This document shows, one piece after another, positions 24,365 through 33,423 of a DNA stretch of 42,261 nt; the stretch's first letter is position 1; the number at the start of each line of letters is the position of its first letter. This stretch comes from Gammaproteobacteria bacterium (GTDB taxonomy: Bacteria > Pseudomonadota > Gammaproteobacteria > JAADGQ01). The stretch is taken from contig WFXF01000028.1 of assembly GCA_015490755.1 (NCBI GenBank), forward strand, positions 1 to 42,261, given 5' to 3'. The translations under genes were made by a program, and so were the position numbers. The notes beneath the pieces are model-generated. The model worked only from the letters and a program-made list of their open reading frames with translations, did no database searches and was not told where the DNA came from.

Positions 24365-25278
24365 GTATCATTAGAGCTGCCTGCAGACCTTTACAGAAAA
24401 TTGAAGATAAAATTCTGGACAAGGCAGGTGTAAGGCTTTTAATCAAACGGGAAGATCAAGTCCACCCAGTCATCTCTGGTAACAAATGGCATAAACTGAA
24501 ATACAACCTTGAAGTGGCGCAAGCACAAGGGCATGACAAGCTACTCAGTTTCGGGGGCGCTTACTCCAATCATATTTACGCATTGGCAGGAGCAGGTAAA
24601 GCTTACAATTTCAACACCATCGGCATGATTCGTGGTGAAGCGTATACCCCCTTAAATCCCACACTGCAATTTGCAGTGGATCAAGGGATGCAGCTCCATT
24701 ACCTTAGTCGCAGCGATTATCGCCACAAGTATGAGCCTGAAATTCTTGATAAATTAAAAGAACAGTTTGGTGAATTTTACTTGATTCCCGAAGGTGGCAG
24801 TAATGCTCTTGCAGTCAAAGGGTGTCGAGAGATTATTGCCGACATCAACGTACCTTTTGATGTAATTACCTCCCCCTGCGGCACGGGTGGCACTTTAGCA
24901 GGATTAATTGCAGGCCTTGAAGGCAAGAAAAAAGCAGTTGGCTTTGCTGTGCTAAAAGGCGCTCACTTTCTGCAAGATGATATCGCTCAACTTTTGCGTG
25001 ATGCAAATGAACCCGGCTTTGAAAACTGGGAGATCAATCTTGATTACCATTTTGGTGGTTATGCCAAAGCAAAACCTGAACTCTTAAGTTTCATTGATGA
25101 ATTTGAAGCACAACATAACATCCCACTGGAGCCAATCTACACCGGAAAAATGATGTATGGATTGTTTGACTTAATCAGGCAAGGGAAATTTCCCCGTGGC
25201 ACAGTCATAGTGGCGATACATACTGGGGGGTTACAGGGTAGAAAATCAAGATTTAAGTGTTTTAATAATGCTCTGTAA
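24361..25278 (+). CDS. D-cysteine desulfhydrase / ACC deaminase family PLP enzyme, C terminus replaced
   Basis: The 305-residue fold-type II PLP enzyme resembles DcyD and ACC deaminase-like proteins. SGNKWHKLKYNL supplies the PLP lysine, GGAYSNHIYALAGAG is a substrate-loop motif, IPEGGSNALAVKG and SPCGTGGTLAGLIAG form the phosphate-binding region, and YTGKMMYGLFDLI and IHTGGLQG lie near the end. D-cysteine desulfhydrase activity is likely but substrates vary. The GTG start overlaps the NUDIX stop (GTGA). After HTGGLQG, the last residues (RKSRFKCFNNAL) are encoded by the antisense strand of a hepT relic, so the native tail was lost in a rearrangement. The core is intact, so it may still work. 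Confidence 0.82.
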   Translation: MSIIRAACRPLQKIEDKILDKAGVRLLIKREDQVHPVISGNKWHKLKYNLEVAQAQGHDKLLSFGGAYSNHIYALAGAGKAYNFNTIGMIRGEAYTPLNPTLQFAVDQGMQLHYLSRSDYRHKYEPEILDKLKEQFGEFYLIPEGGSNALAVKGCREIIADINVPFDVITSPCGTGGTLAGLIAGLEGKKKAVGFAVLKGAHFLQDDIAQLLRDANEPGFENWEINLDYHFGGYAKAKPELLSFIDEFEAQHNIPLEPIYTGKMMYGLFDLIRQGKFPRGTVIVAIHTGGLQGRKSRFKCFNNAL

Positions 25279-25365
25279 CTCAGTTAAAAGTGTTGGGATA
25301 TCATCCTGAGCAAAACCAACCATATCATCTATATAGAAGTGCCATGCTTTTTCTGCTAATCGCAA
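25246..25365 (-). pseudogene. hepT relic with internal deletion (HEPN toxin)
   Basis: A 39-codon minus-strand frame from a possible TTG reads RLAEKAWHFYIDDMVGFAQ, then DDIPTLLTELQSII, and ends KTLKS. The first part is the N terminus of HepT (compare SERAWHFYIDDMVGFAQ at 31691). The second part is the typical HepT C terminus (QDDIPxLLxEL). The middle 80 or so residues, including the RX4HXY RNase motif, are missing, with the join at a CAG codon common to both ends. No mntA precedes it; the LuxR stop codon lies three bases upstream. Its 3' end supplies the new tail of dcyD on the opposite strand. Confidence 0.8.
25306..25348. repeat. Direct repeat copy 1 (hepT 5' end)
   Basis: This 43-base stretch matches 31638-31680 at 41 positions in the same orientation. 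Both encode the HepT segment RAWHFYIDDMVGFAQ on the minus strand. Together they bound the accessory island of about 6.3 kb. Confidence 0.85.
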
Positions 25366-25368
25366 GCT

Positions 25369-26150
25369 TCATAGCAATTCAACAGCACGATAGATCCCAA
25401 GAAAATACCTAAGCGCGTGTACATTTTTAACACCAAGCTTTTCACAAATTTTAGGAAGCAGGTTTTTTGCATACCCTGATGAAATATCATAATAGCTATC
25501 AAGAGCTTTCATCGGGAGTCCTGTAGCAATAAACTTTAGCAACTGTCTCTCTTTTTTATTGAAGCCATCAAACAGAGGGACAATAAAAACTTTTTTGCAA
25601 TCCATATCAGCATGGACTCTATTGTGAAAAAGCTTGATCAAAACTTCAACACACTGAGCATTATCTTTAACCAGCTGAGAATGTACCCGGTCACTATCAC
25701 AACAGATAACACTCGCCCCAGAAATTTCATGAGGAGCACAGAGCGTTGGAATCGATAAACCATTCCGTATATTATAATCCTCTCGCGCCACCTCAAAAAC
25801 ATTCCGCTGGCTTTTAGTGAGCACCCCTTCACGCTCTTTTTCCCACCAATCAATAAGCACCCTATCTCCTTTAGCAATACGATTGACTGTGTAATCACTT
25901 TCGAAAAAGTTTTCTTCCGCATAGTGCTCTAAAAACGAAAGCGGATATGTATCTGAGGCTTGAAAAAAAGGGAGAGGATCTTTCTCCGCCTTTTTTACGA
26001 TACCTAATGGGACTGACATATAAAGCACACCATCAAACCCTAATTGCCGGATTGCATTTTCCAGCAGATCAAAGCACTGGGAAAAACCGTTTCTTTCTGA
26101 TAACTCAATTGCAAAATTAGCAACAATATTGCGGGGGGGGGGTTAGGCAT
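25369..26150 (-). pseudogene. LuxR-family autoinducer-binding regulator, out of frame at a poly-C run
   Basis: From 26028 down, an open frame of 219 residues shows a LuxR autoinducer-binding domain (HYAEENFFESDYTVNRIAKGDRVLIDWW, YNIRNGLSIPTLCAPHEISGASVI). A C-terminal HTH follows (FNKKERQLLKFIATGLPMKALDSYYDISSGYAKNLLPKICEKLGVKN). The same frame continues upstream without stops as RNIVANFAIELSERNG and CFDLLENAIRQLGFDG to a run of ten C. Before the run the frame is shifted (MPNPPP). With 11 or 8 C the protein would be about 260 residues from the ATG at 26150. It is either phase-variable, broken, or a homopolymer sequencing error. No luxI was found in the window. Confidence 0.82.
26133..26142. 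repeat. Homopolymeric G(10)/C(10) tract inside the LuxR-type gene
   Basis: Ten G on the plus strand are ten C in the luxR coding sense, at codons 3 to 6 from the ATG at 26150. Tracts of this kind near a start codon are classic slipped-strand phase-variation sites. With the present length the downstream frame is off. Confidence 0.85.
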
Positions 26151-26221
26151 AACAACATTATGCTCCATTTCAAAGACAGGGTTAAGGGTTATCCTAAAAC
26201 AGCGTCTATAACCGTAATCAA

Positions 26222-26506
26222 TCAAAGCTTTTTAAGCAACAAAAAATTGATGCCACCAAGATAATGTTTCTGGTTACACTCAATCACCTTAAATCCTACG
26301 CCTTGCACCTGCTGAATCAGCTCATTATTGCGAAGGTCAGAAGAAATGCTAAACAGAAAAGGTTTAGTTTTGTTTAGGAGCGAGCACGAAGTAAGTTTGT
26401 ATTGCTTGTACTTTGTCACCAGCTTGACGAATACCACGCCTCTTGCTTTAATGTGTATTGATTTAAAAATTAATACACATCCTGGGACACGTAAAGATGA
26501 GAACAA
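26222..26506 (-). CDS. Unrecognised short ORF upstream of the LuxR-type gene, possibly a fragment
   Basis: A 94-codon frame ends ELIQQVQGVGFKVIECNQKHYLGGINFLLLKKL, which looks like real protein (a Gly-Phe turn and alternating hydrophobics), but no family is recognised. Its 5' part runs through the vapB promoter palindrome and over the vapB start. The true start is therefore probably further in, or the gene has lost its 5' end. The stop codon sits at the 5' edge of the LuxR frame. A remnant of a longer enzyme gene is possible. Confidence 0.3.
   Translation of the reverse strand: MFSSLRVPGCVLIFKSIHIKARGVVFVKLVTKYKQYKLTSCSLLNKTKPFLFSISSDLRNNELIQQVQGVGFKVIECNQKHYLGGINFLLLKKL
26451..26480. promoter_or_regulatory. 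30-bp palindrome before vapBC, probable autoregulatory operator
   Basis: The arms ATGTGTATT (26451-26459) and AATACACAT (26472-26480) are perfect complements. The inside continues as ATTT / AAAT with one G-T mismatch, so nearly the whole 30 bases are symmetrical. It ends 16 bases before the vapB ATG. VapBC complexes repress their own operon by binding such inverted repeats through the VapB ribbon-helix-helix dimers. Confidence 0.65.
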
Positions 26507-26691
26507 ATATCGTTATAGATGATGATCTTATGAATGATGCCATACGGTTGACTGGAGTAAAAACCAAGCGTGAAGCTGTTGAGATAGCACTTAAATCACT
26601 GATTAAAATAAAAAAACAGGAAAGCATCAGAGATTTTCGAGGCAAACTAAAATGGGAAGGTGACCTGGACGACATGAGAACCAACAAGTGA
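26497..26691 (+). CDS. vapB: VapB antitoxin
   Basis: The 64-residue antitoxin begins MRTNIVIDDDLMNDAIRLTGVKTKREAVEIALKSLI, the ribbon-helix-helix form of VapB that binds DNA. The tail ESIRDFRGKLKWEGDLDDMR is the toxin-binding part, with the Trp common in such tails. Its stop overlaps the GTG start of vapC by four bases. It lies just after the palindromic operator and should control its own operon. Confidence 0.92.
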   Translation: MRTNIVIDDDLMNDAIRLTGVKTKREAVEIALKSLIKIKKQESIRDFRGKLKWEGDLDDMRTNK

Positions 26692-27086
26692 TTTTTATTG
26701 ATTCCAGTGTATGGATTGACTACTTCAATGGAAACCAGACACCCGAAACGGAAAAACTGGACTCCATTCTTGGCAGCTCCCCTATCTGTATTGGAGATAT
26801 TGTGCTTACAGAAGTTCTACAAGGATTTAGGAACGATAAAGACTTTAATGCCGCCAAAAAACTGTTGAATGCTCTTGATGTGGTGAATGTTCTTAATACC
26901 TCTATTGCTATAAAAAGTGCGAGCAACTTTCGCGCTCTCCGCAAAAAAGGAATTACAGCAAGAAAAACCATTGATGTCATCATTGCAACTTATTGCATAG
27001 AAAATTCAATCCCATTACTCCACTCAGATAAAGACTTTCTCCCATTTCAAAAACACCTTAATTTATTAACGCCCCTCACCCACTGA
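26688..27086 (+). CDS. vapC: VapC toxin, PIN-domain ribonuclease
   Basis: The 132-residue PIN protein begins MIFIDSSVWIDYFNG with the first catalytic Asp. ICIGDIVLTEVLQGFRNDKDF supplies the conserved Glu. RKTIDVIIATYCIENSIPLLHSDKDFLPF carries the two further Asp that complete the metal site. All four acidic residues are present, so the toxin should be active. VapC toxins cut tRNA or rRNA. Translation starts at GTG overlapping the vapB stop. Confidence 0.95.
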   Translation: MIFIDSSVWIDYFNGNQTPETEKLDSILGSSPICIGDIVLTEVLQGFRNDKDFNAAKKLLNALDVVNVLNTSIAIKSASNFRALRKKGITARKTIDVIIATYCIENSIPLLHSDKDFLPFQKHLNLLTPLTH

Positions 27087-27194
27087 AACACACTCGCAGC
27101 AGGAATACCTATATCCAGCCCTTATACACACCATCAACTACCAGAATTTCCAGAACCAAACCTGGCGATTTATCACATTATCAAAACAAATAAA

Positions 27195-27212
27195 AGGTGA
27201 AAAATTTCACCT
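27195..27212. promoter_or_regulatory. 18-bp palindrome upstream of the lipoprotein gene (operator copy 1)
   Basis: AGGTGAAAAATTTCACCT has 8-bp perfect arms around AA. It is 16/18 identical to the palindrome at 29013-29030 before the HTH regulator gene. Two copies in the same accessory group suggest a shared operator, probably for that regulator. Confidence 0.6.
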
Positions 27213-27332
27213 ACCTAAAAAATGAACTTTCCCTTAAAGTTCAGCGTGAATTCAATTCTTTAACAATACTTTTAAGCTCCAGCGTCGGCCTAATTGTATT
27301 TTCTTAAATATTAGGCGCATAAGGAAGTAGTG

Positions 27333-27923
27333 ATGAAAAATTATGTGATTATACCTGTTTTGATGTTAGTGGTACTTCTTTCCGGTTGTAAGGATGACAA
27401 GACAGGCACAACGGAATTAGAAGGAACTTGGAGTATTGGTTGTACTTCTGACGGCTTTGATAATTATAGCAAGGAGACGTTAACTTACTCAGGCAATTCA
27501 ATATCAATGAAGATTGAAAATTTTGATGATGCGAGTTGTTCTGAGAAGGGGAAGCAGACAGAGTTTAGTGTCACTGGCAATTTTTCTCTAGGTGATGAAC
27601 TAACATTATCCTCAGGCCGCGCAGCACGTAACATAGATTTAAGTAACCTAAAGTGGTTCATCACGATCTATAATGGCACTGTAATACCTGCATTTAATTC
27701 AAAACAACTATGCGGAAAAGCAAATTGGCAAAAAGGTCAAAAAACTGAAATTACCAATTGTGATGCGTTTGGTGGGGCGTTGGGACAATCTGAGTCATAT
27801 GACATATATCGAATTTCTGGGACAAGCCTGTTTCAAGGAGATACTGAGTATGGAGATACTCGCAGTAAAAATAACCGCCCTACTCAATTATTAGAAGGCA
27901 GCTTTTACACAAAAGCTAATTAG
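27333..27923 (+). CDS. Putative lipoprotein, unknown function
   Basis: The 196-residue protein has a lipoprotein signal: MKNYVIIPVLMLVVLLSGC, with the lipobox LSGC. The next residues (KDDKTG) include Asp at position +3 after the lipidated Cys. The mature part begins LEGTWSIGCTSDG and continues with ETLTYSGNSISMKIENFDD. That pattern is common to lipocalin-like or META-like secreted proteins that open with a GTW motif, but no family is certain. Four mature Cys besides the lipid anchor may form disulfides. AAGGAAG precedes the ATG at 27333. The palindromic operator lies about 120 bases upstream. Confidence 0.72.
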   Translation: MKNYVIIPVLMLVVLLSGCKDDKTGTTELEGTWSIGCTSDGFDNYSKETLTYSGNSISMKIENFDDASCSEKGKQTEFSVTGNFSLGDELTLSSGRAARNIDLSNLKWFITIYNGTVIPAFNSKQLCGKANWQKGQKTEITNCDAFGGALGQSESYDIYRISGTSLFQGDTEYGDTRSKNNRPTQLLEGSFYTKAN

Positions 27924-27954
27924 TAGTTTATGTAAATAATAACCTAATCGGGAA

Positions 27955-27978
27955 GCTGAGGGTATAGATATCCTCAGC
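27955..27978. terminator. Hairpin after the lipoprotein gene
   Basis: GCTGAGG (27955-27961) pairs with CCTCAGC (27972-27978), and the stem continues inward through G-T and TAT/ATA. It starts 31 bases after the stop codon. No T-run follows, so termination is possible but unproven. Confidence 0.35.
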
Positions 27979-28164
27979 ACCCACAACACCCTGCCTACGC
28001 TTCCGCAGAGGGCACTTCCTAACAGAAGAGAGAGCTTTCAGAGTCTGAGCGTGTATCGATAAAGCATGTTCTTAAACTCCTTAATGCTGGGTTACGTACG
28101 AAACAATAACCCTGAGTGGCACTACTAACGCTTAAAATTGCCTGCATTCGTCAAAGGAAGAAGT

Positions 28165-28680
28165 ATGTTTAATTTCAAGGCAATAATTGCCACTGTACTT
28201 ATGAGCCTTGTTAGCATGAGCACTCATGCAGATTATTTCTGGCTAGAGGCTAGAGCCGGAGGTTCAAACATAGGCCTTAATTTAGGAATCCAACTCAACT
28301 ACGCCGTTAAAGAGCATGTTTACTCCATTGGATTTGCAAACCCAGATACTGATTTACTGTTTGATAATGAAGGCAATGTTGCGTATGAGGAATACTATAT
28401 AGTTTATGGTATACACAATTATAAAAAGTGGTATAGCACTACAATGCAAGCTGGTATTAGCGCGATGAAAAAGCAAGTGTCTTCATCTTGTGAGAATATC
28501 GGACTTCTTCGTACTGAGTGTGAAAATGAAAGCAACTCTATAACGGTAGGCATCCCTTTAGATTTCACGGTAACCCTTGGTAAATATGCTGGATTAGGTC
28601 TAAACCTCCACTTAAATATCAATTCACTTCAGCCGTTGGCTGCACTCAGTATCAATTATTCGATAGGGAAATTTAATTAA
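28165..28680 (+). CDS. Secreted, outer-membrane-barrel-like protein of unknown function
   Basis: The 171-residue protein has a signal peptide (MFNFKAIIATVLMSLVSMSTHA) followed by DYFWLEARAGGSNIGLNLGIQLNYAV. Alternating hydrophobic strands run to the end (LDFTVTLGKYAGLGLNLHLNINSLQPLAALSINYSIGKFN). Strand alternation and a C-terminal aromatic residue near the end fit a small beta-barrel in the outer membrane. Two Cys (SSSCENIGLLRTECEN) may form a loop disulfide. AAAGGAAG precedes the ATG at 28165; the frame upstream is ignored. No family was recognised. Confidence 0.68.
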   Translation: MFNFKAIIATVLMSLVSMSTHADYFWLEARAGGSNIGLNLGIQLNYAVKEHVYSIGFANPDTDLLFDNEGNVAYEEYYIVYGIHNYKKWYSTTMQAGISAMKKQVSSSCENIGLLRTECENESNSITVGIPLDFTVTLGKYAGLGLNLHLNINSLQPLAALSINYSIGKFN

Positions 28681-28727
28681 CGGATTAAGCGTGGTGTATG
28701 AAGGAAAAACATCAATTTAAATGAACA

Positions 28728-28760
28728 AAATCACTACTGAGTGATTTGCATATTTATAAT
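28728..28760 (+). promoter_or_regulatory. Palindrome and -10 box before the small membrane protein gene
   Basis: AAATCACT (28728-28735) and AGTGATTT (28740-28747) are perfect 8-bp arms around ACTG. A consensus TATAAT follows at 28755-28760, 24 bases before the GTG start. There is no good -35 box; the palindrome covers that place, as an activator site or operator would. Confidence 0.4.
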
Positions 28761-28783
28761 CTATATTAATTTGGAGAAAAAAA

Positions 28784-28984
28784 GTGTTAACCCGTATTTT
28801 TTCAGACGCTTTTAATGGAGCCATTTTTGGAGCAATAGGTATCATCATAATGATTGAAGTATCAAGTAGCATGGTTCAATTTACTTATGCTCTATTTGCT
28901 GGTAGCTACTCAATCACGGCTTTACTTGGTGGTTTAATCGGGGCCGTAATTAATAGCCTTATTTCAATTTCTGGAAAAGGTTAG
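28784..28984 (+). CDS. Small membrane protein, unknown
   Basis: This 66-residue protein starts with GTG after GGAGAAAAAA. Two hydrophobic segments are seen: FGAIGIIIMIEVSSSMVQFTYALFAG and ITALLGGLIGAVINSLISI. Both hold Gly residues spaced as in helix-packing motifs. No family was recognised; the good ribosome binding site and clean membrane pattern support a real gene. It lies between the barrel-like protein and the HTH regulator on the same strand. Confidence 0.55.
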   Translation: MLTRIFSDAFNGAIFGAIGIIIMIEVSSSMVQFTYALFAGSYSITALLGGLIGAVINSLISISGKG

Positions 28985-29010
28985 CCTCTTCATATAGCAC
29001 CTACTTTACC

Positions 29011-29032
29011 AAAGGTGAAAATATTCACCTTT
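29011..29032. promoter_or_regulatory. 22-bp palindrome upstream of the HTH regulator gene (operator copy 2)
   Basis: AAAGGTGAA (29011-29019) and TTCACCTTT (29024-29032) are perfect 9-bp arms around AATA. The core AGGTGAAAATATTCACCT differs at two positions from the palindrome at 27195-27212. It lies about 110 bases before the regulator ATG, which fits autoregulation. Confidence 0.6.
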
Positions 29033-29142
29033 ACTAAGAGGTAGATTTTGTTCTAGAGTCGGGCATTATGAATATGTTGTCAAAAACATCAATAAATACA
29101 GACAAGTAATCATATTTCATTACGTTACAAAGAGGGAATAGC

Positions 29143-29973
29143 ATGAAAAAAGCTTCTGAACCTTTACCACACCTGAAAGAAAAACTTGGAATTTTATTAA
29201 AACAGTTGGGGCGAAAACAGAGCTGGTTAGCTGCTGAGCTAGGCCTTAATCGTAGTCGTATCTCACGAATCAAAAAAGATGGAAAAGTACCAGACGCAAA
29301 AATCATGGCGTTCTGCCACGCACTTAGAGTTACTCCGCAAGAGTTAGAACTAGAAAGCATTGATGAATTTAAAAACAAACGTGAAAATAATTCAGACAAC
29401 AAAGAAGAAGGCGTTGAGTGGCGTGATTTTGTAAAAAAACACAACGAATTTAATCTAAAAGTTCAGCCCAAAAAGAAGCACTCTATGCCCCTAAAAGTAA
29501 TTTCTCCACTTGATGCACAAAGAGGCCTTTCTTATGAACAAAAACCTGCCAGCATAACCCTGCTTAAGCAAAAGCTCGTATCTTTAAGACAGCAAATTGA
29601 ATTTGAAATCCTCTACAATGAAACTGGTTTAAGTGATGATATTGAAGTTATTACATACGTATTGCTGTTAGAAGACGAAAGTGGTCTGAATATTATTGCA
29701 CCACTGAAACAACCATCAAAACCTCAAGCAAGTTCAAATGCATATTTATTCAGCAATGATAATAATGGTGGGTTTTATGCAAGTGAGCCTGTTGGCCAAC
29801 ATACAGCACATTTACTCTTGCTCTCCCAAGCATTAACAGAAGAAATTCAGCAGGATTTTAATAGTCAAAATATTAGAAGAGCCGCTGATAAATTAGCAAT
29901 CTGGCTACAAAATAAAGAAAACAAAATTAACTTTTCTTTAAATAGCACTAACTTTTTTGTTTCAACTCAGTAG
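29143..29973 (+). CDS. XRE-type HTH regulator with an unrecognised C-terminal domain
   Basis: In this 276-residue protein, residues about 9-66 form an XRE/Cro-like helix-turn-helix (LKEKLGILLKQLGRKQSWLAAELGLNRSRISRIKKDGKVPDAKIMAFCHALRVTPQELE). A charged linker follows. The C-terminal half (from about 140) has no recognised domain; it contains EFEILYNETGLSDDIEVITYVLLLEDESGLNIIAPL and ends with an AADKLAIWL helix, perhaps a sensor or oligomerisation part. AGAGGGAA precedes the start. The gene is preceded by one of the two matching palindromes, so it may control itself and the lipoprotein gene. Confidence 0.72.
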   Translation: MKKASEPLPHLKEKLGILLKQLGRKQSWLAAELGLNRSRISRIKKDGKVPDAKIMAFCHALRVTPQELELESIDEFKNKRENNSDNKEEGVEWRDFVKKHNEFNLKVQPKKKHSMPLKVISPLDAQRGLSYEQKPASITLLKQKLVSLRQQIEFEILYNETGLSDDIEVITYVLLLEDESGLNIIAPLKQPSKPQASSNAYLFSNDNNGGFYASEPVGQHTAHLLLLSQALTEEIQQDFNSQNIRRAADKLAIWLQNKENKINFSLNSTNFFVSTQ

Positions 29974-29981
29974 GTGACCCA

Positions 29982-30038
29982 ATGAGCAATATAAATAAAC
30001 TTATACTAAATCAAACTCCTGAAAGGAGTCATAAATGA
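29982..30038 (+). CDS. 18-codon leader ORF coupled to the downstream membrane protein gene
   Basis: An ATG with AGGTGA four bases before it starts an 18-codon frame (MSNINKLILNQTPERSHK) directly after the regulator stop. Its TGA overlaps the ATG of the next gene (ATGA). The frame runs through the hairpin at 30015-30029, which holds the next gene's ribosome binding site. Ribosomes on the leader would therefore open that site. This is inferred from layout only. Confidence 0.4.
   Translation: MSNINKLILNQTPERSHK
30015..30029 (+). promoter_or_regulatory. Hairpin covering the Shine-Dalgarno of the 30035 gene
   Basis: ACTCCT (30015-30020) pairs with AGGAGT (30024-30029) around GAA, six base pairs with a three-base loop. 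AGGAG is the only ribosome binding site for the ATG at 30035, so in the folded RNA it is hidden. Confidence 0.5.
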
Positions 30039-30304
30039 GTTGGTGGCCCAAGTTTTTTATCGCTCTATTTATTGATTTTCTAGACATGACCGTAGGGCGA
30101 CTTTTATTTGTCATACCATTTAGTGGCGAAATAATCGGTGTTGCTGTCGGCTATGCGATGTTTGGTAAAAAGGCCTTTTTCTATGCCCTGGAAGCCATTG
30201 ACCCCACCGAACAAATCGATGGCTTTATCCCAACCGCAACACTGATCGCACTTGCAGCAAAAGCTGACCATGATCAAAAACTCCAGTTGGCTAAAGCTCG
30301 TTAA
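30035..30304 (+). CDS. Small membrane protein, unknown
   Basis: The 89-residue protein starts MSWWPKFFIALFIDFLDMTVGRLLFVIPFSGEIIGVAVGYAMFGKKAFFYAL, with one or two membrane helices. A soluble tail rich in Ala, Lys and Asp follows (GFIPTATLIALAAKADHDQKLQLAKAR). A strong AGGAG lies before the start, but in a hairpin. No family was recognised. It stands last in the plus-strand group of accessory genes after the HTH regulator. Confidence 0.6.
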   Translation: MSWWPKFFIALFIDFLDMTVGRLLFVIPFSGEIIGVAVGYAMFGKKAFFYALEAIDPTEQIDGFIPTATLIALAAKADHDQKLQLAKAR

Positions 30305-30448
30305 GGAGTGCAACAAAACCAAAGAATTTTCTCACAAAAACTACTGGGGTTGGCATAGCAATTATAGGAAGAATATTAATGATGGGAGATGACGTTTGCT
30401 TTAAATTGTATTAGTTGGCCTATCCGCTGGAGCACCTTAATACCGCGA

Positions 30449-30736
30449 TTACACTACACGAGATGCTAATTTTTTATAAATTGTACTTTTGTCCCGTTTA
30501 CCTACAGCTAATACATAAATTACGATTTCATCATCCAATACCTCGTATGCTAATCTATAGCCCGCTACACGTAATTTGATCTTATAAACATAATCATAAC
30601 CTTTTAACTTAGCCGATGGCACATGAGGGTTTACAAGTCTCTCTGCAAGTTTTTTCTTAAATTGTTTCTTGAGTGGTTCAGCTAGTTTATCCCACTCTTT
30701 TTTAGCTAGGGGAAGAAACTTTAATTTATAAGTCAT
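30449..30736 (-). CDS. relE: RelE-family toxin (RelE/StbE type)
   Basis: The 95-residue basic protein has the RelE pattern MTYKLKFLPLAKKEWDKLAEPLKKQFKKKLAERLVNPHVPSAKLKGYDYVYKIKLRVAGYRLAYEV. It ends VIYVLAVGKRDKSTIYKKL, with the C-terminal catalytic-type Lys/Arg/Tyr residues. RelE toxins cut mRNA in the ribosomal A site. The start overlaps the antitoxin gene by 11 bases. It differs clearly from the RelE-type toxin at 304-573. Confidence 0.93.
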   Translation of the reverse strand: MTYKLKFLPLAKKEWDKLAEPLKKQFKKKLAERLVNPHVPSAKLKGYDYVYKIKLRVAGYRLAYEVLDDEIVIYVLAVGKRDKSTIYKKLASRVV

Positions 30737-30977
30737 TTAAATCAACTTCAATAGCGCTTGATAAATCTGCACGTCGATTTTCAACTACTTGGCTCAACTC
30801 ATAATCATCTAGCACATCCATTAACCATTCATATGTTTCCGCAGGAACTAAATAGGCTGTAGGTTTATTATGATTTAATATAGCAATGGCTGAGCCATCA
30901 GCTTCATTCAATAATGATGTAGGATTTTTTTTAAGCTCAGAAATACTTGCTGAGAAATCAGCTAATACTTGCCTCAT
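30726..30977 (-). CDS. relB: RelB/StbD-type antitoxin
   Basis: The 83-residue antitoxin matches the StbD/RelB (Phd-like) group: VLADFSASISELKKNPTSLLNEADGSAIAILNHNKPTAYLVPAETYEWLMD, then an acidic tail (LDDYELSQVVENRRADL) that binds the toxin. The ATG at 30977 is preferred over upstream TTG and GTG codons because GGTGAA lies before it. AATTAAG-type repeats just upstream are likely its operators. Confidence 0.9.
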   Translation of the reverse strand: MRQVLADFSASISELKKNPTSLLNEADGSAIAILNHNKPTAYLVPAETYEWLMDVLDDYELSQVVENRRADLSSAIEVDLNDL

Positions 30978-30998
30978 AACATTCACCAATTAAGTATC

Positions 30999-31051
30999 AA
31001 ATTAAGCCCTTATTTTAGAACTTAATTTAATTAATAGCTAGAGCTTAATTT
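30999..31051. promoter_or_regulatory. Repeated TTAATT operator-like sites before relBE
   Basis: AAATTAAGC (30999-31007) and its exact reverse complement GCTTAATTT (31043-31051) flank a third CTTAATTT at 31021-31028. Three copies just upstream of the antitoxin start fit cooperative binding by the RelB-RelE complex. The region also separates relBE from brnA upstream on the same strand. Confidence 0.45.
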
Positions 31052-31093
31052 ATCGGTATAACGCCATTACTATTTTTAGGCCTTTGCATTTTT

Positions 31094-31345
31094 TTATTCT
31101 TCACGAATAACTTTTCTTAATAGCGTTTCATCCACTATTGATGAAGAGCTATAGGCCTTTAATGTTTGATTAATCAGCGTTTGATAACCTAAACCTTTCT
31201 GTTTTGCTTTTAATCGAAAACTCTTTATGACTTCGTTATCCAGCATTATAGTGATTCGTGTTTTACCTTCTTCTGTTTGTAACTGCGCTAAATGAGGAAC
31301 ATCTTTAGCTCGCTTGGCTTTTGAAAAATCATATTCTTCACGCAT
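31094..31345 (-). CDS. brnA: BrnA antitoxin
   Basis: The 83-residue protein begins REEYDFSKAKRAKDVPHLAQLQ, the conserved BrnA start. It continues with the ribbon-helix-helix part GKTRITIMLDNEVIKSFRLKAKQKGLGYQTLINQTLKAY. In Brucella BrnA binds and neutralises the RelE-fold toxin BrnT and represses the operon. Its ATG overlaps the end of the HepT-BrnT chimera by eight bases, the coupling expected of a brnT-brnA pair. The BrnT half retained in the chimera is its natural partner. Confidence 0.92.
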   Translation of the reverse strand: MREEYDFSKAKRAKDVPHLAQLQTEEGKTRITIMLDNEVIKSFRLKAKQKGLGYQTLINQTLKAYSSSSIVDETLLRKVIREE

Positions 31346-31691
31346 AACATCCTGCCTCTTTTTTCGTGGCCTTTCTTGCCGAAATTAAACGAATTATTTT
31401 GTCATTTCTTAGCGTATAAACTATTGTGAGTAGGCGAGCCGCCTTATTACTCAAACCAACTAATACCCAGCGGTTCTCATCTATTGAGCCAACATCCTCT
31501 TGTACAAGTGCCATTTCATCATAAAGTACTGTTGCTGCTTCACCAATTAACTCAAGATTGCGAACTGTAGCATCATAATTCAAACCTGTGACCTCAAATG
31601 TTGCCTGATCCAGACCATCACAATAAGAGATAACATTCTGAGCAAAACCAACCATATCATCTATATAAAAATGCCATGCTCTTTCAGACAT
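31338..31691 (-). CDS. Chimeric toxin: HepT N-terminal half fused to BrnT C-terminal half
   Basis: In this 117-residue open frame, residues 1-54 are the HepT (HEPN, DUF86) N terminus: SERAWHFYIDDMVGFAQN, GLNYDATVRNLELIGEAAT. Residues about 51-117 are the BrnT C terminus: EAATVLYDE, RWVLVGLSNKAARLLTIVYTLR, IIRLISARKATKKEAGCY. Both parents carry EAAT at the join, so the fusion probably arose by deletion between short homologies (31529-31543). The HepT RX4HXY RNase motif and AMPylated Tyr are gone, as are the BrnT N-terminal KHGV region and first strands. The gene overlaps mntA and brnA by eight bases each. It may be inactive, or act as a new bipartite antitoxin-binding protein. Confidence 0.88.
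   Translation of the reverse strand: MSERAWHFYIDDMVGFAQNVISYCDGLDQATFEVTGLNYDATVRNLELIGEAATVLYDEMALVQEDVGSIDENRWVLVGLSNKAARLLTIVYTLRNDKIIRLISARKATKKEAGCYA
31638..31680. repeat. Direct repeat copy 2 (hepT 5' end)
   Basis: This 43-base stretch matches 25306-25348 at 41 positions, in the same orientation. It encodes the N terminus of the chimeric toxin. Recombination between the two copies would remove the island between them. Confidence 0.85.
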
Positions 31692-31974
31692 TAACAGCCT
31701 CTCGCTCTATAAAAGGCCGCAATTCAGATCGCATCGCTTTTTCAGTTACCAAATCAACCGGATGACCCAATTCATCTTCCAGATAAAATTGCACGCCAAA
31801 ATACTTTTCAGAGGTTGCAGGCCCATCAAATGAGACGACAATATCAATATCACTATCAGGTCGCGCTTCATCACGCACCGTAGAACCAAACAAAGCCAAA
31901 CGTGTTACCCCAAAATTCTTCACTAAATCAGGTTTGAGTTTGGCAAGAGTGTCTAATGCCTGTATACGATTCAT
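31684..31974 (-). CDS. mntA: MntA antitoxin, minimal nucleotidyltransferase
   Basis: The 96-residue MNT protein has the motif GVTRLALFGSTVRDEARPDSDIDIVVSFDG near residues 22-51. It includes the GSxxR nucleotide-binding loop and the DxD metal site. MntA proteins neutralise HepT by adding AMP groups to a Tyr near its RNase motif. Here the neighbouring HepT has lost that Tyr, so the classical mechanism cannot operate on it. The stop overlaps the chimera start by eight bases. The remaining HepT N-terminal half may still be bound. Confidence 0.93.
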   Translation of the reverse strand: MNRIQALDTLAKLKPDLVKNFGVTRLALFGSTVRDEARPDSDIDIVVSFDGPATSEKYFGVQFYLEDELGHPVDLVTEKAMRSELRPFIEREAVNV

Positions 31975-32049
31975 AAATATTTTTCCAGTTTATCCAGATT
32001 CATTTCGTAATACCCGTACAATTATGCAATTTCATCGCTTATATTGCTC

Positions 32050-32736
32050 TCATTCATCCTTACAACGCACGATATCAAGATAATCGCGCAAGCTTCTTCC
32101 CGACAAGACTTCAAACTTCTCTTCTAATAATTTAATATTTTTCATTCGATCCAGACGAAAATGACGAAATTCGTCACGCAGCTCACACCAGGCCACTAGC
32201 GTCCAGACACGCCCCCAATAAAATAGCCCCAGGGGATGTACAGTCCGTGATGAATGTTGACCATCTTCTCGTGTGTAGTCATAAGCCGTTTTGCATTGTT
32301 GTTTGATTGCACAGCGTAACAGAGCCAAATGCTCTTGAGTGATCGGGCTGACATTGAAATCAGGCACCAGCAACTCTTCACGATCCAGTTCCGGCCTGAG
32401 CCGCTCTGGAAGTGCATTTTCTATTTTACGAATGGCCTGATGCGCTGCACTCGCCAGACTTTTATCTGTCCATGCCTGCACCATACGGGCACCTAAAATT
32501 AATGCCGCCAGCTCTTCTTCGTCAAACATCAACGATGGAAGGTGAAAACCTTTCATCAGACGATAGCCCACACCGGCCTCACCTTCGATCGGCACACCAG
32601 AAAGCGATAGGTCCTGAATATCCCGATAAATGGTACGTTCGGAAACCTCCAGTTCTTCAGCAAGGTTGCGAGCAGTTGTGACCTTGTTATGATCTAACAA
32701 CCCGACAATTTGAAACAGACGATCGGCTCTGCGCAT
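32050..32736 (-). CDS. YafY-like transcription regulator with HTH and WYL domains
   Basis: In this 228-residue protein, residues 1-60 are an HTH_11 winged helix (MRRADRLFQIVGLLDHNKVTTARNLAEELEVSERTIYRDIQDLSLSGVPIEGEAGVGYRL). Residues about 135-220 are a WYL domain (ALLRCAIKQQCKTAYDYTREDGQHSSRTVHPLGLFYWGRVWTLVAWCELRDEFRHFRLDRM). Such regulators sense ligands, often nucleic-acid or nucleotide-like, through WYL. The ATG follows the DUF2461 stop directly, so it is the last gene of a three-gene operon and probably regulates it through the inverted repeat at 33882-33905. Confidence 0.92.
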   Translation of the reverse strand: MRRADRLFQIVGLLDHNKVTTARNLAEELEVSERTIYRDIQDLSLSGVPIEGEAGVGYRLMKGFHLPSLMFDEEELAALILGARMVQAWTDKSLASAAHQAIRKIENALPERLRPELDREELLVPDFNVSPITQEHLALLRCAIKQQCKTAYDYTREDGQHSSRTVHPLGLFYWGRVWTLVAWCELRDEFRHFRLDRMKNIKLLEEKFEVLSGRSLRDYLDIVRCKDE

Positions 32737-33423
32737 TTAAAAACGCAACTCCAAAGCATTACATAAGTAGCTCATTAATGGCGTGGCCTGACTAAAACGC
32801 TCAGACACCAGAGGAAACAGTTTCTTTGACACCACCTCTTTTTCGCTGAGGTTAGCAATTGCGATAAAATCTTTACGCTTCAGATCGTCAATCAACGAAT
32901 GATCCTTTGCATAGCCGCGTGGTGGATTTTTTAGTGCATCACCTTCAAGGGTAAAGTGTTTGTTGAAGTTTTTGTCATCTCGGGCTGTCACCCAGCCATC
33001 ACCTTTTTCAACAATAGCGTCACGAATTTTGCCTAATGTTTTAGAGTCGGGTCGCCAAATACCGACACCGATAAAACATGCGCCATTTTCGATATGCAGA
33101 TAAAATCCCGGTGCATGTACATCCTTGCCGACCTCGTGACGAAACTGAATACCAATATTGGTTTTGTAGGGACGCTTATCCTTGCCAAAACGCATATCAC
33201 GATGAACACGCATTAAAGAGCCACCCACTTTTTTAGGCAGTGCCGTAAAGTGAGGCGATATAATCGCCAGCTCATTGGCAAAATCAGTAATAAAATTCAG
33301 GGCGGGTATGCGAACCGTCTCTTCATAAACCTGCCTGTTTTCCTGAAACCAGTCACGATTGTTATTCGCCGCCAGTTTCGATAAAAAAGTAAAGGTTTCC
33401 TGAGTGAAGAAACGATCCGACAT
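32737..33423 (-). CDS. DUF2461 family protein (TIGR02453)
   Basis: The 228-residue protein shows the DUF2461 pattern: FLSKLAANNNRDWFQENRQVYEETVRIPALNFI near residues 14-46, the invariant RVHRDMRFGKDKRPYKTNIGIQFRH near the middle, and GFYLHIENGACFIGVGIWRP. Biochemical function is not established for the family. It sits between a VOC protein gene (six bases upstream) and the WYL regulator gene (no gap). Confidence 0.9.
   Translation of the reverse strand: MSDRFFTQETFTFLSKLAANNNRDWFQENRQVYEETVRIPALNFITDFANELAIISPHFTALPKKVGGSLMRVHRDMRFGKDKRPYKTNIGIQFRHEVGKDVHAPGFYLHIENGACFIGVGIWRPDSKTLGKIRDAIVEKGDGWVTARDDKNFNKHFTLEGDALKNPPRGYAKDHSLIDDLKRKDFIAIANLSEKEVVSKKLFPLVSERFSQATPLMSYLCNALELRF

Follow-up and report, generated by a model that had tools for sequence, protein, structure and literature searches.

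The window, i.e. the whole stretch of 42,261 nucleotides analysed here, carries on its minus strand a tight row of three genes in the order mntA (31974-31684), a hepT::brnT chimera (31691-31338) and brnA (31345-31094), the chimera overlapping each of its neighbours by eight bases. The mntA-like gene (31684..31974) encodes an antitoxin of 96 amino acids, a minimal nucleotidyltransferase with an intact GSX10DXD motif (Pfam NTP_transf_2, PF01909, E 4.5e-18); the NCBIfam model MntA_antitoxin also matches it (E 4.7e-12), but the score of 45.7 bits lies below the cut-off of 60. At the other end of the row, the intact brnA-like gene (31094..31345) encodes an antitoxin of 83 amino acids (Pfam BrnA_antitoxin, PF14384, E 5.1e-11). 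The frame between them (31338..31691) starts with ATG and encodes 117 amino acids with no internal stop codons; NCBIfam gives no match for the chimera or for brnA. These data agree with the first-pass annotation, made from the sequence alone, both in the two eight-base overlaps and in the retention of both antitoxins.

The same annotation had likened residues 1-54 of the middle frame to HepT and the stretch from about 51 to 117 to BrnT, and both Pfam and identities to intact relatives bear this out. BrnT_toxin (PF04365) matches residues 51-112 with E 1.8e-15 and 57.4 bits against a cut-off of 34.5, covering only positions 19-77 of the 77-position profile. HepT-like (PF01934) matches residues 18-60 with E 3.1e-5 and 24.1 bits, barely above the cut-off of 23.5, and covers only positions 6-48 of 120. 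Over residues 1-54, the identity to the beginning of the intact HepT L004, the best match of the protein search in the genome contig collection, is 81%, while residues 51-117 are 61% identical to the intact BrnT proteins L098 and L102. Given these E-values and identities, chance is excluded as the source of either likeness. The HepT-derived part thus comprises codons 1-54 (31530..31691, minus strand) and the BrnT-derived part, codons 51-117 (31341..31541, minus strand); they share the junction GAAGCAGCAACA (EAAT, codons 51-54; 31530..31541, minus strand), which, judging by the relatives' letters, is not assignable to one parent.

The eight-base overlaps at both ends of the chimera are usual for the two parent families. 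An mntA-type frame lies upstream with an overlap of eight bases in 82 of the 102 hepT-type frames analysed with the same script, and among the four closest brnT/brnA pairs the overlap equals eight in L098, L102 and L103 and 17 in L100, the length being variable across the larger collection of brnT loci. The retained sequence itself is well conserved: the HepT half keeps all 24 positions at which at least 90% of its relatives (n = 97) agree, and the BrnT half keeps 13 of the 15 at which at least 85% of its relatives (n = 34) agree; at the other two it has Leu in place of Phe and Ile in place of Val. The BrnT half also contains a one-residue insertion near residues 84-86, where 33 of the 34 brnT rows have a gap.

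The active sites have fared differently. The HepT motif RX4HXY, described in the part of PMC7641770 that we used as the RNase and AMPylation site on which the modification of HepT by MntA depends, is absent from all 117 residues of the chimera; by the same pattern, it is present in 94 of 101 hepT rows and missing from the open frame in the other seven, a count that includes duplicate records and possibly some assembly breaks. As for BrnT, a review excerpt (PMC5086665) lists Asp6, Glu7, Lys9, Arg41 and Glu78 as important for RNase activity. In our alignments, the first three of these listed residues fall in the segment lost from the chimera and replaced by HepT sequence; the equivalents of Arg41 and Glu78, R74 and E112, are kept. 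An excerpt on the BrnT-like toxin Aave_1720 (PMC10714953) names Lys17, His18, Phe29 and Glu86 as residues that matter; we equate the Lys17-His18 of this excerpt with the Lys-His pair shared by all 11 intact BrnT proteins aligned, which is absent from the chimera. Both the HepT motif and the BrnT N terminus are hence missing, as had been noted earlier. Most of the active-site residues named in these sources are lost. Given the residues it lacks, the chimera probably has no ribonuclease activity. The word "toxin" applied to it in the first-pass annotation is probably wrong. The further claim that the chimera keeps parts recognised by both antitoxins divides in two: retention of the parts recognised by BrnA is plausible, whereas recognition by MntA is doubtful, because the tyrosine modified by MntA went with RX4HXY. 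We also considered the HepT segment LNYDATVRNLELIGEAAT as a mimic of the BrnT start and rejected this, since the conserved BrnT Lys, Asn and Lys-His are not clearly reproduced. BLAST matches to BrnT relatives reach weakly into the HepT segment, L110 from residue 22 and L114 from residue 16.

An AlphaFold2 model of the chimera, built with eight hepT and 34 brnT fragments, is of moderate confidence, with a mean pLDDT of 79.7 and a pTM of 0.64, against 94.6 and 0.85 for an intact BrnT control. The lowest block is formed by the first ten residues (52), and from residue 51 on, in the BrnT half, the ten-residue block means are 80-89. The model comprises helices at 3-25, 29-33 and 39-57, four strands within 62-107 and a final helix. 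For this model, Foldseek ranks the BrnT-type toxin 7vd7 first among solved structures (E 4.0e-3); none of the matches reaches an E-value of 0.001 or less. In VIA-align, which warns that Z under 8 may reflect a common arrangement, the chimera gives Z 8.0 with 7vd7 (rmsd 2.9, 79 aligned residues, span 5-117) and Z 5.2 with 3u97, the latter tied near Z 5 with mostly unrelated rows, the intact control giving 15.6 and 11.0, respectively. No HepT structure was recognised among the VIA-align matches listed for the chimera, although that fold may still be present. According to the model, the chimera probably folds around the four-stranded BrnT sheet and, with lower certainty, the HepT helices may occupy the place of the first strand and helix of BrnT.

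The DNA at the join reads GAAGCAGCAACAGT, the same as in the intact brnT relative L098, and the hepT relatives (n = 7) have GARGCNGCNWCN at the equivalent position. In codons, the chimera has GGT GAA GCA GCA ACA GTA CTT TAT GAT, L098 has GAA GAA GCA GCA ACA GTG CTT TAT GAC, and the seven hepT relatives have GARGCNGCN followed by ACN (TCA in one); the exact twelve letters of the join occur in none of these seven. The two families read this stretch in an identical frame, as EAAT or a variant of it. At the level of letters, then, the join coincides with brnT L098 and fits the hepT consensus, and short-homology recombination is a well-supported candidate for its origin. We infer the following order of events. 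Recombination over a short shared segment, which the relatives suggest to be about 12 bases long and which codes for EAAT in both genes, would have joined hepT (within codons 51-54) to brnT (within codons 23-26); this single event would remove the catalytic half of HepT together with the N terminus of BrnT, and mntA, the chimera and brnA would become one tight gene row in which both ancestral overlaps are retained. As the reading frame of the shared segment does not differ between the parents, the fusion would be in frame automatically, and we therefore reject the in-frame fusion as proof of selection. A deletion between two neighbouring systems at the EAAT segment had been proposed before; the in-frame fusion of unrelated toxins at this point stands, and the DNA fits short homology, but in this lineage the parents were not seen as neighbours; the other genome of the genus (G001) lacks the island that carries the locus.

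This island (25254..32056, 6.8 kb) is bordered by the genes of a PLP-dependent enzyme and a WYL regulator. In the blastn comparison with contig C6 of G001, the sole other genome of the genus, the alignment stops at 25253 and resumes at 32057, the flanking DNA being 84-85% identical; the search for the two intact ancestral systems in a related genome ended with the absence of the whole island. Besides the three genes described above, the island contains genes of a LuxR-type regulator, a PIN protein, a Cro/C1-type regulator and a Phd / ParE-RelE-type pair. It is rich in toxin-antitoxin genes. At its end opposite to the chimera lies a second hepT remnant (25246..25365, minus strand; 39 amino acids and a stop codon), in which the HepT start is joined directly to the C-terminal tail; the remnant and the 5' end of the chimera form a 57-nt direct repeat (91%). 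The three-base CAG is possibly the joint of an internal deletion in the remnant, and, judging by sequence, both hepT copies of the island look inactivated. The genome has no further PF01934 match above the cut-off and two below it (E 0.017 and 0.06). A separate BrnT-like gene with a BrnA-like neighbour (L002) is situated on another contig and is 45% identical. No Rfam matches were obtained at 24500-33000; promoter-like sites at 30900-32200 occur at the chance level (four found, 4.4 expected), and there are two terminator-like sites with 1.0 expected.

Searching for the whole chimera and for proteins that span its junction, as suggested with the first-pass annotation, gave no fusion among the matches, and a second full-length chimera was not found in the collections and genomes searched; fusions that have diverged below the limits used could be missed. 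In the genome contig collection (84,980 species), six short peptide patterns yielded 529 stretches and 416 relatives, with no fusion of both halves among the best 80 of the 416 (80 loci re-checked). Five plasmid records and one phage record match the BrnT half only, and this search gave no relative in the viral contigs. Within the order, three genomes including its own contain no second chimera; no fusion was seen among the matching genomes drawn from the class (62 of 369) and, at the stricter limit of 1e-10, from the phylum (20 of 398), both counts including its own genome and some genomes belonging to both draws. Several matches appeared to span the join. Those inspected, e.g. L040, L044, L066 and L078, are intact HepT aligned weakly along the length; those in L110, L114, G039, G170 and G345 are BrnT upon inspection; and a short HepT match in G357 is an ordinary HepT with RX4HXY.

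The two systems do meet elsewhere. In L068, mntA-hepT and brnT-brnA lie on one strand with another gene between them, which we take to be of the ABC-F type; in L083, a BrnT frame precedes a HepT frame at less than 1 kb; and in L100, from an unrelated genome, brnT-brnA is followed by mntA and then by a shortened hepT frame (1327-1521) without RX4HXY. All three loci are unrelated, and none is the direct ancestor of the chimera.

With the MntA-HepT systems (HEPN/MNT, type VII), the locus shares the intact GSX10DXD mntA, the eight-base overlap and the first 54 residues of HepT, but the chimera has neither the C-terminal half of HepT nor RX4HXY. With BrnT-BrnA (type II, RelE-like BECR fold), it shares the intact brnA, the eight-base overlap and, as predicted by the model, the BrnT sheet and the C-terminal helix, but is without the first strand and helix, three of the five RNase residues listed in the review excerpt, and the Lys-His pair. 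Fused toxin-antitoxin genes are known: the part of PMC11980606 that we used tabulates 28 prokaryotic and four eukaryotic BrnT-BrnA fusions. The tabulated fusions resemble our chimera in that a BrnT domain is fused to another toxin-antitoxin-related protein; however, they combine a toxin with its own antitoxin, whereas here pieces of unrelated toxins are fused and both antitoxins are separate. Among the papers listed in the literature searches, none appeared, by its title or the opening lines of its abstract, to describe unrelated toxins of two such systems fused with each other.

Considered together, the data are best read as decay, to which we assign a probability of roughly two-thirds: a single recombination would have disabled both toxin genes in a toxin-antitoxin island undergoing decay, and what is left would be an inactive core that BrnA may bind. 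The chimera would then most likely be an inactive toxin core between two intact antitoxin genes, on which MntA would have lost its usual target site, while BrnA may still bind. Decay is the simpler reading because the island carries a second decayed hepT and seven of the 101 hepT rows are without the motif in the open frame. Several observations point the other way. A neutral remnant of some age should by now be broken, whereas here the frame, the antitoxins and the conserved positions are intact, which would fit a recent event or selection indistinguishably. The fair confidence with which the BrnT half is modelled could possibly indicate function. Finally, the parents were not encountered as neighbours in this lineage, and the exact letters of the join are absent from all seven hepT relatives compared.

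Alternatively, the chimera could be a retained regulator that does not kill, bound by BrnA via the BrnT sheet and serving as a co-repressor or stabiliser of BrnA, with mntA now part of the row. The intact brnA, the BrnT sheet in the model with 7vd7 as its best solved match, and the retention of all HepT-conserved and most BrnT-conserved positions are consistent with this role. The promoter and operator of brnTA are expected upstream of the brnT start, and this region is gone; moreover, promoter-like sites are at chance around the locus, and with the locus absent from G001 its conservation cannot be shown. We thus regard such a regulator as unlikely, and its extension to a selected non-toxic hub, which would hold BrnA via the BrnT sheet and MntA via the HepT helices in one regulatory complex, as very unlikely. 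That the chimera instead kept or gained ribonuclease or other toxicity, controlled by one or both antitoxins, is highly improbable: R74 and E112, equivalents of two of the five reported RNase residues as excerpted, are kept, and Tyr-Asp (39-40) of the HepT segment could stand near the place of the BrnT Trp/Phe-Asp, but with spacing six residues shorter, while no clear counterpart exists for Glu7, Lys9 or the Lys-His pair, and the RX4HXY centre of HepT is gone. The chimera comes from a single genome, a draft of 94 contigs, with no second observation, and two real loci might have been joined at the shared segment in assembly. We consider this very improbable, as the shared segment of about 12-14 bases, judged from relatives, is far below usual assembly overlaps, the junction is internal to a 42-kb contig, and no near-identical parent of either half was found elsewhere in the assembly, the only other matches being the 45% identical BrnT and the remnant at 25246-25365, the only other close HepT match.

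Under the decay reading, the locus is apparently a natural snapshot of two addictive systems disarmed at once without loss of either antitoxin gene, the recombination having occurred at a short stretch which the two toxins happen to read in one common frame. Should the chimera bind both antitoxins, it would represent a novel type of regulator; otherwise, it would still show a route for recombining toxin folds. It is rare, instructive and useful as a test object, yet it is a singleton and is probably inert.

Three minor observations concern single genes. The LuxR-type regulator of the island (25369-26028, minus strand) carries an autoinducer-binding domain. Among the brnT relatives, one from a viral contig (L144) has an in-frame stop codon. 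In L118, a BrnT frame (1420-1704) is without the N-terminal Lys-His, the remainder and the start of brnA looking ordinary; either the N terminus may have been lost here in parallel, or the frame may be broken.
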